Assembly: GCA_902783345.1 (NCBI GenBank)
Contig: CACZQI010000015.1
Location: 1 to 36,439, forward strand
Direction: 5' to 3'
DNA from: an uncultured Erysipelotrichaceae bacterium
Lineage (GTDB): Bacteria; Bacillota_I; Bacilli_A; RF39; UBA660
DNA length: 36,439 bases
The notes beneath the pieces were generated by a model, which saw nothing but the letters and a program-made list of their open reading frames with translations, searched no databases and was not told the origin of the DNA. Position numbers and translations under genes: made by a program. This document shows positions 30,026 to 34,582 of the stretch, one piece after another. The first letter of the stretch is position 1. The number at the start of each line of letters is the position of its first letter.

Positions 30026-31561
30026 ATGAAAAGAATTATTTTAGGCATTATTTGTATATTTTCCATAAATGTATATGCAGAAAACTTTTATACTGATTAT
30101 AAGTTAGATAAAGAAAATACAACTATATATTTTCCTGAATATGAAAATAATGAACTTAAAAAATATGAAAGTAGAGTTGTTTATAATAATTATAAAGAAA
30201 TTAAGTCAAGTGGTAATTATTATGAATTAGGCAAAAATCCAGTTAACTATCCATATTCTGATTTAGATGATTATATTGATAAAAATAGTTATGCTAAAAA
30301 GCCTTATAATACTGATGATGAACAATATAATACTCTTAGAATAAATAAATATTCTACTATTCGGATGATAAATCTTAGGTCATTTGTAAGTTCAGCTATA
30401 TTAAAAGAAATTATTATTAAATATAATGATGAAATAATAAATTATACCATTTATGAAACTAATTATAACTTTGATACTACTTTAAATAATAATCATTACA
30501 TAGTCCTTGATTTAGGTCAAAATTATGATTTAGACAAACTAACTATCAAACTAGTTTTTGAAGATAATACACGTAGTTATTTAGCCTTTATGTTAAATGT
30601 TTATAATGGCACATATTATATTGGAGCCCCATATGCTTATTATGATAATATTGTCTATCGTAATAATGATATAGAAACCTATAATATTAACTTTATATCT
30701 AATGATAGTTTTAATGAATTTTTACCTAAAATATCATGGATAAAATCTAGAAATTATGATAGTACTAATGCAGTTAATTATTATAAACAAACTAAAAGAT
30801 TATATAAGTATTTTACATATACTAAAGAATATTTAAGTGTTTTTACTGATGAGCCTTTAGAAGGATATAAACTTGATTATGATTATCCGGTAACGATATA
30901 TAATTATTATTCTAGAGATTATATCAGTGTTAATGATAATTTAGATAATTTAGAAGATTTAAATAAGATTATTGTATCTTCTTCTATTGATATAAATGAT
31001 ATTGATATTCAAAGTAAAATAATGGATGAATATATATTAGTTACAATTAGTTATGATAATAATACCTTTTTTAAAAAATATCCTTTAATAATTGATAATA
31101 CTAATAATGAAAATGAAGTTAGTTTAGAAAAAGAAGAAGAAAACATAATTGAAGAAATAATTCTAAATGAGCAAGAGGATACTTTTAATACTGTAGATAC
31201 TTTAAGTGAAGAAAATATTAAAGAAGATATTGCTCAAATAACTATAAACGATACAGTTAATGAAGAAAAACCAAAAGAAGATATAGATCAAAGTAAATTA
31301 GCTAAAGATAATAATCAAAATCGCGTTAAAGTTTATGTCCCAAAAAAGCCTTTAAAAAATAATGAAGAAGGAACTAAAGAAGAAATAATTGCTTTAGCTA
31401 ATAAAGAAAAAGCATCTACAAGTGAAGGGGTAGATACTTTATCTAAAAAAACAAATAAATGCTACTTATATCTGTTAATAATTTTAATTATTATATTAAT
31501 ATGTGTAAAGTTGTTGTCATTATACCTAAATAAAAAAAGAAGTTTTGTCGAACATGTTTAA
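30026..31561 (+). CDS. Unknown exported, membrane-anchored protein heading the spoIIA-like operon
   Basis: 511 residues. Signal peptide (1-18, ending NVYA), a Tyr/Asn/Asp-rich extracytoplasmic region (19-360) probably of beta strands, a long acidic linker (about 360-470, Glu/Lys/Asp-rich) and one transmembrane helix (about 480-502) with a basic tail KKRSFVEH. No family recognised and no catalytic motif seen. Strong AGGAGGTGAG ribosome site. It takes the place that dacF holds before spoIIAA in Bacillus, but there is no penicillin-binding motif. With no terminator before spoIIAA, 43 bases on, co-transcription and a sporulation role are likely but inferred. Confidence 0.75.
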   Translation: MKRIILGIICIFSINVYAENFYTDYKLDKENTTIYFPEYENNELKKYESRVVYNNYKEIKSSGNYYELGKNPVNYPYSDLDDYIDKNSYAKKPYNTDDEQYNTLRINKYSTIRMINLRSFVSSAILKEIIIKYNDEIINYTIYETNYNFDTTLNNNHYIVLDLGQNYDLDKLTIKLVFEDNTRSYLAFMLNVYNGTYYIGAPYAYYDNIVYRNNDIETYNINFISNDSFNEFLPKISWIKSRNYDSTNAVNYYKQTKRLYKYFTYTKEYLSVFTDEPLEGYKLDYDYPVTIYNYYSRDYISVNDNLDNLEDLNKIIVSSSIDINDIDIQSKIMDEYILVTISYDNNTFFKKYPLIIDNTNNENEVSLEKEEENIIEEIILNEQEDTFNTVDTLSEENIKEDIAQITINDTVNEEKPKEDIDQSKLAKDNNQNRVKVYVPKKPLKNNEEGTKEEIIALANKEKASTSEGVDTLSKKTNKCYLYLLIILIIILICVKLLSLYLNKKRSFVEHV

Positions 31562-31604
31562 AAACATATTAGTTTTACCTATATTAAAAGGGAAGGAGGA
31601 GAGT

Positions 31605-31922
31605 ATGTTAAAAATTAATATGGAATATCGTAAAGGTATTTTATTTGTTAGATTAAAAGGTGAACTAATTAGATATAGTTATCATGACTTAACTAAATAT
31701 ATTATCCCAATTATTGAAGAAAAAGGAATTAAATATATTGTCTTTAATTTAGATAATCTTACAGTAATTGATAATTATGGTAAAATGGCACTTAAAATGG
31801 TTTTAAATGTTTTAAAAGATAGGACTGGTAAAGGATTAATATGTACATCTAGTATACCATTTGATAATAGTGAAAGTGTAGTAAGTGATGAATTAAAAGC
31901 ATTTACATTATTAAAGGTCTAG
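31605..31922 (+). CDS. spoIIAA: SpoIIAA-like STAS protein lacking the phosphorylation-site serine
   Basis: 105 residues from the ATG after GGAAGGAGGA; an upstream in-frame start (31545) has no ribosome site and overlaps the previous gene. Aligns along its length with SpoIIAA: GILFVRLKGEL with VLCIRLTGEL, and YIVFNLDNLTVIDNYG with HIVLNLEDLSFMDSSG. SpoIIAA normally frees sigma-F by removing the anti-sigma kinase SpoIIAB, and is switched off by phosphorylation of Ser58. Here that residue is Asn (N57 in D-N-Y-G), so phosphorylation there is impossible. No spoIIAB follows. Function as a sigma-F regulator is therefore uncertain. Confidence 0.8.
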   Translation: MLKINMEYRKGILFVRLKGELIRYSYHDLTKYIIPIIEEKGIKYIVFNLDNLTVIDNYGKMALKMVLNVLKDRTGKGLICTSSIPFDNSESVVSDELKAFTLLKV

Positions 31923-31932
31923 GTGAATAAAG

Positions 31933-32586
31933 ATGGATTATGAAAATGAGCTTATAGAAAAATATGAAGGTTTAATATATAAAATAGCTAAACGGTTTTA
32001 TAATGTTGAACTTGCTGACCTTTATCAAGCAGGACGGCTGGGGCTTATAAAAGCGGCCCGTAAATATAAAAAAGAAATAGGAACACCTTTTAAAGATTTT
32101 GCTTACCTTGATATTTTTGGTGAAATGTATGAACTGGCTAATAAAAGTCGTGATATTAAATTAAGTAAATATTACCTTCAATTATATAAAAGAATTCAAA
32201 TTGCTAAAAGTGAACTAATTAATACCTTAAATAGAGAGCCTTCAATTTATGAATTATCACTTTATATGGAACTTGAAGAAAGTTTAATTGCTGAAGTTAT
32301 AACTTTAACAACATCAATGCTTAGTTTAGATGCTGAGTATGAAAAAGAAAACAGTACTAGTTCAATTATAGATACAGTAGGCATAGAGCCTAATTATGAT
32401 AATAAAATACTGATTGAAGAATCCTTAAAAAATTTAGAGCCTTTAGAACAAGATGTTATTAAAATTAGATATTTTAAAGATTATACTCAATCGGAAACAG
32501 CTGAAATTTTAGGTATTAGTCAAGTAAAGGTTTCTAGGCTAGAACAAAAAGGTAAACAAAAGATTAAAGAGTATATTGCATCCTAA
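31933..32586 (+). CDS. sigF: Sporulation sigma factor, SigF-like
   Basis: 217 residues, slightly short. Region 2.2 ADLYQAGRLGLIKAARKY, region 3 (AKSELINTLNREPSIYELS), and region 4 with FKDYTQSETAEILGISQVKVSRLEQK, nearly identical to sigma-F of Bacillus over TQSE.AE.LGISQV.VSRLE. Regions 2.3/2.4 (AYLDIFGEMYELANKSRD) lack the RFIRDDG stretch usual in SigF/SigG, so promoter recognition may differ. Its AGGTGA ribosome site overlaps the spoIIAA stop; spoVAC follows. Position between spoIIAA and spoVA makes SigF the best call; SigG is the alternative. Confidence 0.82.
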   Translation: MDYENELIEKYEGLIYKIAKRFYNVELADLYQAGRLGLIKAARKYKKEIGTPFKDFAYLDIFGEMYELANKSRDIKLSKYYLQLYKRIQIAKSELINTLNREPSIYELSLYMELEESLIAEVITLTTSMLSLDAEYEKENSTSSIIDTVGIEPNYDNKILIEESLKNLEPLEQDVIKIRYFKDYTQSETAEILGISQVKVSRLEQKGKQKIKEYIAS

Positions 32587-32599
32587 TTTTTCCATAATA
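32571..32599 (+). promoter_or_regulatory. Possible sigma-F/G promoter of the spoVA genes
   Basis: GTATA (32571-32575), 17 bases, CATAATA (32593-32599) match GnATR-17/18-CATnnTA, inside the 3' end of sigF. Bacillus spoVA is sigma-G-dependent. The expected start at about 32606 leaves only about 7 nt before the spoVAC ATG, and no good ribosome site is visible. Confidence 0.45.
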
Positions 32600-32612
32600 A
32601 TAATGTGATTGT

Positions 32613-33050
32613 ATGGAAAAAGAAGAATATTTAAAAATTGTTAAAGAATTAACCCCCAAAGATAATAAAGCGAAAAATTGTTTATACGCTTTTTTAATCG
32701 GGGGTTTAATTGGTTTTATTGGGGAAATAATTACCTTATTTATCTTAAATGTTTTTACTCTTACTTTAGAAGCTGCTTCGGCTTGGACTTGTTTTATAGT
32801 AATTTTTATATCATGTTTATTAACTAGTTTGGGATTTTTTGATAATTTAGTTAGTAAATATAAATGTGGACTTATTATTCCAACAACCGGTTTTGCTCAT
32901 TCAGTAATGAGCGCTAGTTTAGATTATAAAAAAGATGGATTAATAACTGGGCTTGGTTCTAACTTTTTTAAACTTGCTGGTAGCGTTATTTTATATGGAA
33001 TTATTAGTGGATTTATTATGGGGATAGTTAAGGTGATTATTAATGTTTAA
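32613..33050 (+). CDS. spoVAC: Stage V sporulation protein AC
   Basis: 145 residues, four predicted membrane helices. Contains the family block IIPTTGFAHSVMSASLDYKKDGLITGLGSNFFKLAGSV in outline (Gly-Phe-Ala-His-Ser and Phe-Lys-Leu-Ala-Gly). SpoVAC forms part of the inner-spore-membrane channel that loads dipicolinic acid into the forespore and releases it during germination. spoVAA and spoVAB are absent, as in clostridia. Ribosome site weak; spoVAD overlaps its end by 8 bases. Confidence 0.93.
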   Translation: MEKEEYLKIVKELTPKDNKAKNCLYAFLIGGLIGFIGEIITLFILNVFTLTLEAASAWTCFIVIFISCLLTSLGFFDNLVSKYKCGLIIPTTGFAHSVMSASLDYKKDGLITGLGSNFFKLAGSVILYGIISGFIMGIVKVIINV

Positions 33051-33990
33051 TTTTAAAGATGTTTATATTACAGATTATTTTTCGCTTGTAGGGCCAGTGG
33101 AAAATGAAAGTAATCTCAAAAACTATAATTTAGCAATGAATGATTATTATTATGGTGAAAAAACTTTTGAAAAAGCTGAAATAAAAATGCAAAATGTTGT
33201 TTTAAATAATTTATTAAAAAATCATACTCCTGATTTAGTATTAGGATCTGATTTAATGAATCAAATGATTATTGGTAATATGAGTTTAAATATGCGTAAT
33301 ATTCCTTATTTAGGTATTTATTCAGCTTGTGCTTCAAGTGTTGGTGGAATGCTTTGTTTAGCTAGTTTTATCGATAGTAAAAAAATTAAAGAAGGTTTAT
33401 ATATAACAAGTGCCCATAATTTAAATGCTGAAAAACAGTATCGTTTTCCGATTGAATATGGAGCACCTAAACCAATAAGAAGTACATTTACAACTACTGG
33501 GGCAGTAGGATTTACATTATCTAAAACGCCATCTAATATAAAAGTTGTTAGTGGTACATTTGGATGCGTAGTTGATTCATATGTTAAAGATGTTTTTAAT
33601 ATGGGAGCGGTTATGGCAAGAGGAGCAGTAGATACTTTTTTAAGACATTTAAAACTAACTAAAACAACTTCTCAAGATTATGATTTGATTTTAACTGGTG
33701 ATTTAGGAAAAGTTGGAGAAAATATATTTAAACGCTTACTTAAAAAAGAAGGAATTACTTTAAATAACTATAAAGATTCAGGGACTCTAATTTATGATAA
33801 CAAAGAATATTCTGGAGGTAGTGGGCCTGCTGTATTACCACTTGTCTTCTTTAATAAAATAATTCATAATAAAAAATATCGAAAAATACTTTTAATCGCT
33901 ACTGGTTCATTACATAGTCCTGTTTTAGTTAATCAAAAAAATACTATACCTACTATTAGCCATGCCGTAACAATTGAGGTGATAAGATGA
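33043..33990 (+). CDS. spoVAD: Stage V sporulation protein AD
   Basis: 315 residues, thiolase-like fold. Signatures: YLGIYSACASSVGGML (Cys site region), SAHNLNAEKQYRFPIEYGAPKP, TTTGAVGFTLS and SGGSGPAVLPL. SpoVAD is the soluble member of the SpoVA channel and binds dipicolinic acid. Start overlaps spoVAC by 8 bases and the end overlaps spoVAE by 4 (ATGA), so the three are translationally coupled. Confidence 0.95.
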   Translation: MFNFKDVYITDYFSLVGPVENESNLKNYNLAMNDYYYGEKTFEKAEIKMQNVVLNNLLKNHTPDLVLGSDLMNQMIIGNMSLNMRNIPYLGIYSACASSVGGMLCLASFIDSKKIKEGLYITSAHNLNAEKQYRFPIEYGAPKPIRSTFTTTGAVGFTLSKTPSNIKVVSGTFGCVVDSYVKDVFNMGAVMARGAVDTFLRHLKLTKTTSQDYDLILTGDLGKVGENIFKRLLKKEGITLNNYKDSGTLIYDNKEYSGGSGPAVLPLVFFNKIIHNKKYRKILLIATGSLHSPVLVNQKNTIPTISHAVTIEVIR

Positions 33991-34337
33991 CACTTATTTA
34001 TTCATTTCTATTTTGTGGTTTAGTTTGTTTAATTGCCGAGATTATCTTAGATAATACTAATTTAACACCTGGACATTTAACAAGTATCTTTACAGTAGCT
34101 GGATCAGTACTTGCTGCTTTTGGAATATATGAAAAAATCATTGAAAAAGTAGGTAGTGGAGCAAGTTTACTAATAATTAACTTTGGTAATAACTTAACTA
34201 ATTATGCATATTTAGGATATTTAAGAGAAGGTTTTCTAGGTATTTTTAAATATATTTTAGTAGGTTCATCACTTGCAATTAGTGCTACAATTATCATTTC
34301 AGCAATTTTAACTCTTTTTACGAAAGCAAAAGATTAA
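33987..34337 (+). CDS. spoVAE: Stage V sporulation protein AE
   Basis: 116 residues with about three membrane helices. Shows the SpoVAE pattern: FLFCGLVCLIAEIILDNTNLTPGHLTSIFTVAGSV in outline (Gly-Leu-x-Cys, then Leu-Thr-Pro-Gly-His). Membrane part of the dipicolinate channel with SpoVAC. Last gene of the spoIIA-spoVA string; no terminator is seen before the leuS T-box promoter. Confidence 0.93.
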   Translation: MTLIYSFLFCGLVCLIAEIILDNTNLTPGHLTSIFTVAGSVLAAFGIYEKIIEKVGSGASLLIINFGNNLTNYAYLGYLREGFLGIFKYILVGSSLAISATIIISAILTLFTKAKD

Positions 34338-34343
34338 TTTTAC

Positions 34344-34372
34344 TTGAAAAACAAAAAATAATTTTATATAAT
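34344..34372 (+). promoter_or_regulatory. Promoter of the leuS T-box operon
   Basis: TTGAAA (34344-34349) and TATAAT (34367-34372), 17-base spacer. Confidence 0.75.
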
Positions 34373-34378
34373 ACATTC

Positions 34379-34569
34379 GTAAGCAGAAGAAAAAAGAGTA
34401 GTAATAAAATTTATCTTTAATAGAAAGTTAGTGGTTGATGGAAACTAATAAATAAATTTTATGAACTTGCTTTTGGATGTGTTAGGAGAAGTCCTTTATA
34501 ACTTATAAGTATAAAATTAAGGTGGTACCACGGCTTTTCGTCCTTAGAAAAGTGCGTGGTTTTATTTTT
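34379..34569 (+). ncRNA. T-box leader (leucine)
   Basis: Contains the T-box sequence AAGGTGGTACCACGG (34519-34533) and a terminator: CCACG.CTTTT (34528-34538) pairs with AAAAG..CGTGG (34548-34559), then a T run. Stem I has a basal stem AAGCA/TGCTT (34381-34385 with 34468-34472) and a long ATAAAATTTAT/ATAAATTTTAT stem. The specifier region GAACTTGC holds CTT, a Leu codon, although its last base could instead pair in the basal stem. Uncharged tRNA-Leu would stabilise the antiterminator and switch on the operon. Confidence 0.92.
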
Positions 34570-34582
34570 AGAAAGGATGCTT

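Follow-up and report, generated by a model that had tools for sequence, protein, structure and literature searches.

In the SpoIIA partner switch of Bacillus and Clostridium, SpoIIAB is both the kinase and the anti-sigma factor, and the SpoIIAB-SpoIIE switch serves as a model for two daughter cells taking different fates. The genes spoIIAA, spoIIAB, sigF and spoIIE are listed, in an excerpt of PMC3533761, among those of all spore-forming bacilli and clostridia. The locus described here resembles this switch in its SpoIIAA-type STAS fold, in its spoIIAA-sigF-spoVA gene order and in the presence of Spo0A, SpoIIR, SpoIIGA and SigG in the same genomes as the module. Unlike the classical system, it has no SpoIIAB over cut-off, the SpoIIE domain is absent from 50/50 genomes, the phosphosite and the contact residues are lost, sigF is shortened and diverged, and SpoIIAA covaries with SigF itself. 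As the defining tests (SpoIIAB, SpoIIE and the Ser) gave negative answers, the module, which operates at the SpoIIA switch's position, is not to be filed as a SpoIIA switch.

The RsbV-RsbW-RsbU sigma-B switch has the same single-domain STAS antagonist fold (6m36 is among the structural matches). In our case, by contrast, the HATPase_c_2 kinase is over cut-off in 0/50 genomes, there is no Ser in the window (the whole 36,439-nucleotide stretch of DNA analysed here), and the locus is a sporulation one. SypA of Vibrio fischeri is also a canonical-looking STAS protein with its own downstream role, thought to act through a non-kinase partner, but it retains Ser56 and the kinase/phosphatase SypE and lies in no sigma-factor locus, according to passages of PMC10120452. 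For RF39 itself, Field, Bowerman and Hugenholtz (2024) compiled an inventory of sporulation genes, an excerpt of which describes both spoIIAB and spoIIE as absent or reduced and predicts that regulation differs (PMC10868615); the terms spoIIAA and sigF gave no match in its main text. In the open-licence literature, phrases on absent SpoIIAB returned no paper, and no description of a remodelled spoIIAA-sigF pair was found by title or abstract start. The loss of spoIIAB and spoIIE is partly in print, and the remodelling of SpoIIAA, with its likely re-wiring, was not found in print by these searches.

The spoIIAA-sigF pair in the window and in RF39

In the window, the genes follow one another on the plus strand in the order orphan membrane protein gene, spoIIAA, sigF, spoVAC, spoVAD and spoVAE (Table 1). 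No terminator-like site lies between the genes from 30026 to 34337; the two such patterns detected are inside spoVAC and spoVAD. The spoIIAA start codon is preceded by a strong ribosome-binding site, ggaaggaggagagtATG, and the ORF list holds a longer alternative with a TTG start at 31545. Two claims of an earlier note on this DNA stand: spoIIAA and sigF are separated by exactly 10 bases when counted, with no spoIIAB between them or elsewhere in the locus, and the spoVA order downstream is kept, each of the three genes being identified by Pfam or NCBIfam matches. Further downstream, positions 34344-34570 hold a promoter-like site together with a GGTGGTACCACG motif, followed by a small ORF and a gene reading as leucyl-tRNA synthetase. 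This arrangement resembles a T-box leader; an Rfam search at gathering score gave no match.

Table 1 Positions of the features of the spoIIAA-sigF region in the window
Feature	Position	Strand	Details
Orphan protein gene	30026..31561	+	511 aa; first gene of putative operon
spoIIAA-like STAS protein, remodelled	31605..31922	+	105 aa; ATG 31605, stop ends 31922
Codon 57 of spoIIAA, AAT = Asn, at the classical phosphoserine site	31773..31775	+	sequence, alignment
spoIIAA-sigF gap, place of spoIIAB in the classical operon	31923..31932	+	10 bases
sigF, diverged, N-terminus shortened	31933..32586	+	217 aa; ATG 31933, stop ends 32586
spoVAC	32613..33050	+	PF03862 97.9 bits, TIGR02838 142.6 bits
spoVAD	33043..33990	+	PF07451 288.8 bits
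spoVAE (SpoVAEB type)	33987..34337	+	PF03862 62.5 bits, TIGR02839 89.6 bits

The pairing extends across RF39, the order of UBA660. The start of sigF lies at most 100 bases from spoIIAA in 160 of 162 distinct loci, window included, which is far beyond chance, and with longest-ORF starts the two genes overlap in 57 of them. Both exceptions involve an insert reading as metK (S-adenosylmethionine synthetase): in L029 it separates spoIIAA from sigF (L029:10557-11723), and in L040 the same metK-like insert follows spoIIAA and reaches the contig end (L040:7177-8223). A metK-like relative also lies just upstream of spoIIAA in L056. Downstream, spoVAD is present in 61/81 clustered loci; contig ends cut some of the others.

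Loci were gathered from several sources. Protein database searches returned 110 proteins with the window SpoIIAA (own cluster counted) and 777 with the window SigF, 120 of them listed. A species-genome scan with the motif E[YF][RK]KG[IV]LF[VI] gave 136 confirmed loci, 80 of which were taken (L001-L080). The source organisms of these 80 are uncultured, and almost every entry is titled MAG, under labels such as Bacilli, Mollicutes, Erysipelotrichales, Tenericutes and similar, with one Clostridia; Bacillales bacterium UBA660 is among the sources. By SigF, the window is closest to L001 and L004 (isolates RUG12877 and RUG11168), which we take to be rumen MAGs. Next come L003, L005, L007, L010 and L011, in genomes (G003, G005, G007, G010, G011) that fall within the same order as the UBA660 genome; UBA660 is given as a family within order RF39 in an excerpt of PMC13155120, which would place the window in RF39. 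Within the order, a SpoIIAA-profile match was obtained in 296/385 genomes, and none at E 1e-6 in 89/385. Further order loci (n=110, as 30 + 80) were drawn from the best-scoring part of the SpoIIAA-profile matches listed. The 162 loci correspond to 191 inputs minus L206 (no ORF match), after merging of identical SpoIIAA sequences.

A second SpoIIAA-profile match occurs in 13 of the 296 matching genomes (e.g. G041, G024, G034, G210), and L024, L036, L043 and L073 carry a divergent second sigma-factor-like ORF of about 231-235 aa on the opposite strand near the module.

SpoIIAB, SpoIIE and the surrounding sporulation pathway

None of the 385 sampled genomes of the order has a match over cut-off to TIGR01925, the model for SpoIIAB; the best score is 47.1 bits against a cut-off of 135. 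Weak matches (E 1e-4 or better) are found in 337/385, those shown lying in frames of 191-757 aa. In the class sample, the same model is over cut-off in 58/296 genomes, 29 of which measure 1.3-1.8 Mb, showing that it works on small genomes. The HATPase_c_2, first SpoIIE-domain and pathway-gene searches were made in 50 of the 80 scan genomes, picked for spread, and a further one in the same 50 plus G141, where SpoIIAA sits on a 1.04 Mb contig; no SpoIIAB match was obtained in G141. Across the 50 genomes, HATPase_c_2 (PF13581) was never over cut-off, with weak matches in 40/50 in frames of 247-777 aa, and the SpoIIE phosphatase domain PF07228 was over cut-off in 0/50, with one weak match.

A PP2C (SpoIIE-domain) match is over cut-off in 10/385 order genomes, and six of these are strong. 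Two of the strong matches were scanned and prove to be fusion proteins (629 and 669 aa) that join PP2C to HATPase_c_2, and a third reads alike; the scanned fusions would belong to a separate switch rather than represent SpoIIE. In three of the six strong-PP2C genomes, site 57 of SpoIIAA is Y, M and C. The genomes with strong SpoIIE-domain matches include G315, G357 and G210 (L258, L259 and L260).

In the same 50 genomes, Spo0A is over cut-off in 48, and SpoIVA, SpoIIGA and SpoIIR in 45 each. A SigG-model match of at least 290 bits is present in 43/50, the model's own cut-off of 457 being reached in 0/50. With matches in 43-48/50, the cascade around sigma-F is kept and its switch is not.

Remodelling of SpoIIAA and SigF

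The window SpoIIAA matches the STAS domain with 37.9 bits, over the Pfam cut-off, and the SpoIIAA equivalog TIGR02886 with 29.4 bits, below its cut-off of 114.75. Its predicted fold is still that of a SpoIIAA-like STAS protein, with SpoIIAA as the nearest solved structures. A different STAS paralogue, which the earlier note had named as a finding that would overturn its reading, is disfavoured by locus position, fold and sequence profile. Codons 56-59 (31770-31781) read D-N-Y-G, and profile alignment to solved SpoIIAA (1th8_B, 1auz_A) places position 57 on the phosphoserine of D-S-S-G.

For comparison we used SpoIIAB holders (59 genomes with matches, 58 over cut-off), of which 30 loci were fetched. 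In 24 of these 30, SpoIIAA was found by profile, and these 24 served for residue and covariation counts; of the remaining six, four have D-S-S-G in the gene that precedes SpoIIAB, and the other two are truncated. Ser57 is present in 28/28 readable SpoIIAB holders versus 16/162 clade loci (Ser or Thr, 20/162). Site 57 takes 17 different residues in the clade (E 38, N 24, I 22, S 16, M 15, D 10, L 9, Q 6, T 4 and eight others); the Asp before it is kept in 158/162 and the Gly two places after it in 159/162.

The losses reach beyond the phosphosite. D22, F54, S57, G61 and R66 are each found in 24/24 aligned SpoIIAB holders versus 19, 5, 16, 0 and 1 of the 162 clade loci, respectively. D22, S57 and R66 occur jointly in 24/24 SpoIIAB holders versus 0/162 clade loci, which indicates that the interface is lost in Ser carriers too. 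In B. subtilis numbering, carried over to the clade alignment in this analysis, the SpoIIAB/SpoIIE contacts E21 (E or D), D23, F55 and R67 are retained in 39, 19, 5 and 1 of 162 loci versus 24/24 each. Equivalents of the two acidic residues, the Phe and the Ser take part in kinase binding or phosphorylation according to passages of PMC10120452, and R67 belongs to both the SpoIIAB and the SpoIIE interfaces according to an excerpt of PMC11418112.

Other positions have become fixed. R16, N48, G75 and E96 are present in 162/162 loci each versus 11, 17, 21 and 15 of the 24 SpoIIAB holders. Because the scan motif covers E7, K10 and G11, their conservation in L001-L080 is partly a product of selection of the loci; recounted in 81 loci chosen without the motif, G11 is found in 80/81, E7 in 74/81 and K10 in 59/81, versus 1, 1 and 3 of 24 SpoIIAB holders. 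Some of the newly fixed residues may be structural, for instance where strand 2 touches the last helix. With a median dN/dS of 0.107 over 117 of 122 close pairs, which are not independent, SpoIIAA is under purifying selection; the median for SigF is 0.169.

SigF has diverged as well. The window protein scores 129.5 bits with the SigF model TIGR02885 (cut-off 321.45) versus 74.1 with the SigG model TIGR02850, and its best-scoring solved chain is sigma-F 1l0o_C. It is therefore closer to sigma-F than to sigma-G, and the separate SigG-model match noted above is present in 43/50 relatives. Two relatives score 126.8 and 192.7 bits on TIGR02885, both below cut-off, and the SigF of one SpoIIAB holder, at 235.1 bits, is likewise under it. 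In the genome of the 192.7-bit SigF (G034, L043 and L113), the SigE and SigG encoded next to SpoIIGA reach 317.4 and 335.2 with their own models. Clade SigF proteins are without 17 columns near the N-terminus that are present in most SpoIIAB holders.

We consider these genomic and residue-level facts to be firm, with very little doubt. Regarding what the earlier note had read from the window, the replacement of the classical phosphorylated Ser by Asn is borne out by the AAT codon and the profile alignment, and the alignment of the clade at position 57 that it proposed shows Ser in only 16/162 loci versus 28/28 SpoIIAB holders. It had also stated that a spoIIAB elsewhere in the genome, together with relatives keeping Ser, would speak against it; in the relatives, which are what was searched, TIGR01925 is over cut-off in 0/385, HATPase_c_2 in 0/50, and Ser57 is found in 16/162, so that this check did not overturn the note's reading. 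The spoIIE search it suggested, run in relatives, gave the domain over cut-off in 0/50. This loss of the SpoIIE domain and the loss of contact residues besides the Ser both go beyond that note.

Possible modes of sigma-F control

We correlated pairwise protein divergences with the other proteins held fixed (partial r), using for the clade the 59-60 loci with readable SpoVA genes. In 59 loci, SpoIIAA and SigF covary with a partial r of 0.58 (bootstrap 0.48-0.66; 0.47 on log distances), while SpoIIAA gives 0.13, 0.07 and -0.11 versus SpoVAC, SpoVAD and SpoVAE. In 24 loci of SpoIIAB holders, values are 0.54 for SpoIIAA-SpoIIAB, 0.76 for SpoIIAB-SigF and 0.03 for SpoIIAA-SigF (bootstrap -0.09 to 0.19), so that this control recovers the known contacts and none for SpoIIAA-SigF. 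The go-between was held fixed in the SpoIIAB holders, whereas an unseen one in the clade could not be, and the covariation could pass through such a third protein. Taken as a signal in rates of divergence, the SpoIIAA-SigF covariation fits a direct or complex-mediated link. It also lends support to the earlier note's proposal of a new mode of control, in which SpoIIAA would act on sigma-F or on another partner.

The explanation we favour, with about even confidence, is a remodelled sigma-F module across the order, in which the phosphorylation switch would have been dismantled and SpoIIAA re-purposed, most likely for action on sigma-F itself or within a shared complex. It draws together SpoIIAB in 0/385, the SpoIIE domain in very few genomes, adjacency in 160/162, the kept pathway, the residues lost and gained, dN/dS and the covariation. 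The kinase and the phosphatase would have been lost first. SpoIIAA would then have turned from a SpoIIAB antagonist into a regulator acting on sigma-F itself, either by direct binding or within one complex. It would probably inhibit sigma-F or hold it until septation, and the adjacent genes suggest that SpoIIAA and SigF may be produced jointly. A candidate for the trigger of release in the forespore would be the membrane protein whose gene precedes spoIIAA in roughly one third of loci. Counting against this re-purposing of SpoIIAA are four observations: residue-level SpoIIAA-SigF coupling is not above permuted pairings; where the upstream membrane protein is present (36 loci), the SpoIIAA-SigF value drops to 0.21 and matches that of SpoIIAA-SpoVAD, with SigF-SpoVAD at 0.30; SigF and SpoVAD covary at 0.22 in the 59 loci, though no contact is expected; and PP2C is over cut-off in 10/385 genomes. 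The narrower form, in which SpoIIAA itself would be the direct controller of sigma-F across the order (an anti-sigma factor or holdase) without protein phosphorylation, kinase or PP2C phosphatase, is put forward tentatively, as it seems to us somewhat short of an even chance.

Less probable is that SpoIIAA works via a third protein that holds sigma-F as a stand-in for SpoIIAB, the first candidate being the upstream orphan membrane protein where present. This family, defined by clustering and HMM, lies directly upstream of spoIIAA in 57/162 loci and on the same strand in 44/44 clustered loci. In the 36 loci, the rate of this protein covaries with those of SpoIIAA (0.35) and SigF (0.37, or 0.25 when log distances are used) but not with those of SpoVAC and SpoVAD (0.04 and 0.04), which mirrors the hub position of SpoIIAB. 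From these data, the orphan protein may be a partner of the module where it is present. On the other hand, it was not found directly upstream in 105/162 loci, and 150/162 loci have at least 1000 bases upstream; the SpoIIAA-SigF covariation is stronger (0.77) in the 24 loci where it was not counted; and the family is fast evolving and so poorly alignable (19% mean column identity) that its distances are rough.

The orphan protein of the window had no Pfam or NCBIfam match at E 0.001. Its AlphaFold model has a mean pLDDT of 74 and a pTM of 0.48, with a helix at 477-504, and no convincing PDB fold was found for it; the protein is probably secreted, with one C-terminal membrane span. Members in L029 and L031 show apparent long coiled coils. 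Seven other loci (L046, L052, L063, L065, L069, L070 and L077) have a protein of 85-92 aa, of one family, directly upstream of spoIIAA; the one that was scanned had no family over cut-off.

Control of sigma-F by transcription alone (Spo0A and others), with SpoIIAA drifted to another or minor role and kept by operon structure, is unlikely. The loss of the known contact residues and the 17 different residues at position 57 speak for it, but purifying selection, the new invariant residues, the covariation of SpoIIAA with SigF and the retention of a SpoIIAA-profile match in 296/385 genomes argue against it.

We find it quite improbable that the order is losing sporulation, with the module as a disappearing relic. 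Genomes are small (0.6-1.9 Mb among those listed), 89/385 are without a SpoIIAA-profile match at E 1e-6, and a machine-learning tool gives cattle RF39 MAGs a sporulation probability of 0%, the same tool reporting spoIIAB in all its predicted spore formers (passages of PMC12536801). Against this stand Spo0A, SpoIIGA, SpoIIR, SpoIVA and SigG in 43-48/50 genomes, a dN/dS near 0.1, and the finding, in a transfer study of spore formers, of RF39 among the taxa that passed over on eggs (excerpt of PMC7028958), a hint of a resistant form in the order.

That SpoIIAB and SpoIIE are present but were missed, through incomplete genomes or divergence, is the least probable reading: the genomes are drafts, mostly MAGs with no completeness figure, weak SpoIIAB-model matches are found in 337/385, and absence rests on relatives rather than on the window's own genome, but those matches stay at or below 47.1 bits versus 135, in frames of 191-757 aa where shown, with the model over cut-off in 58/296 class genomes, other sporulation genes detected in 43-48/50, contact residues gone from SpoIIAA, and no SpoIIAB match in G141 despite its 1.04 Mb contig with SpoIIAA.

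Overall, a large group of uncultured gut bacteria probably takes the first cell-fate decision of sporulation in another way than the textbook one. By keeping sigma-F and the downstream cascade without the switch, the order offers a natural experiment for asking which parts are indispensable, and the SpoIIAA-SigF pair, with two proteins, is small enough for in vitro work. There is also a bearing on annotation: the tool described in passages of PMC12536801, which reports spoIIAB in all its predicted spore formers, may misjudge RF39, a common gut lineage, with its 0% score for the cattle MAGs.
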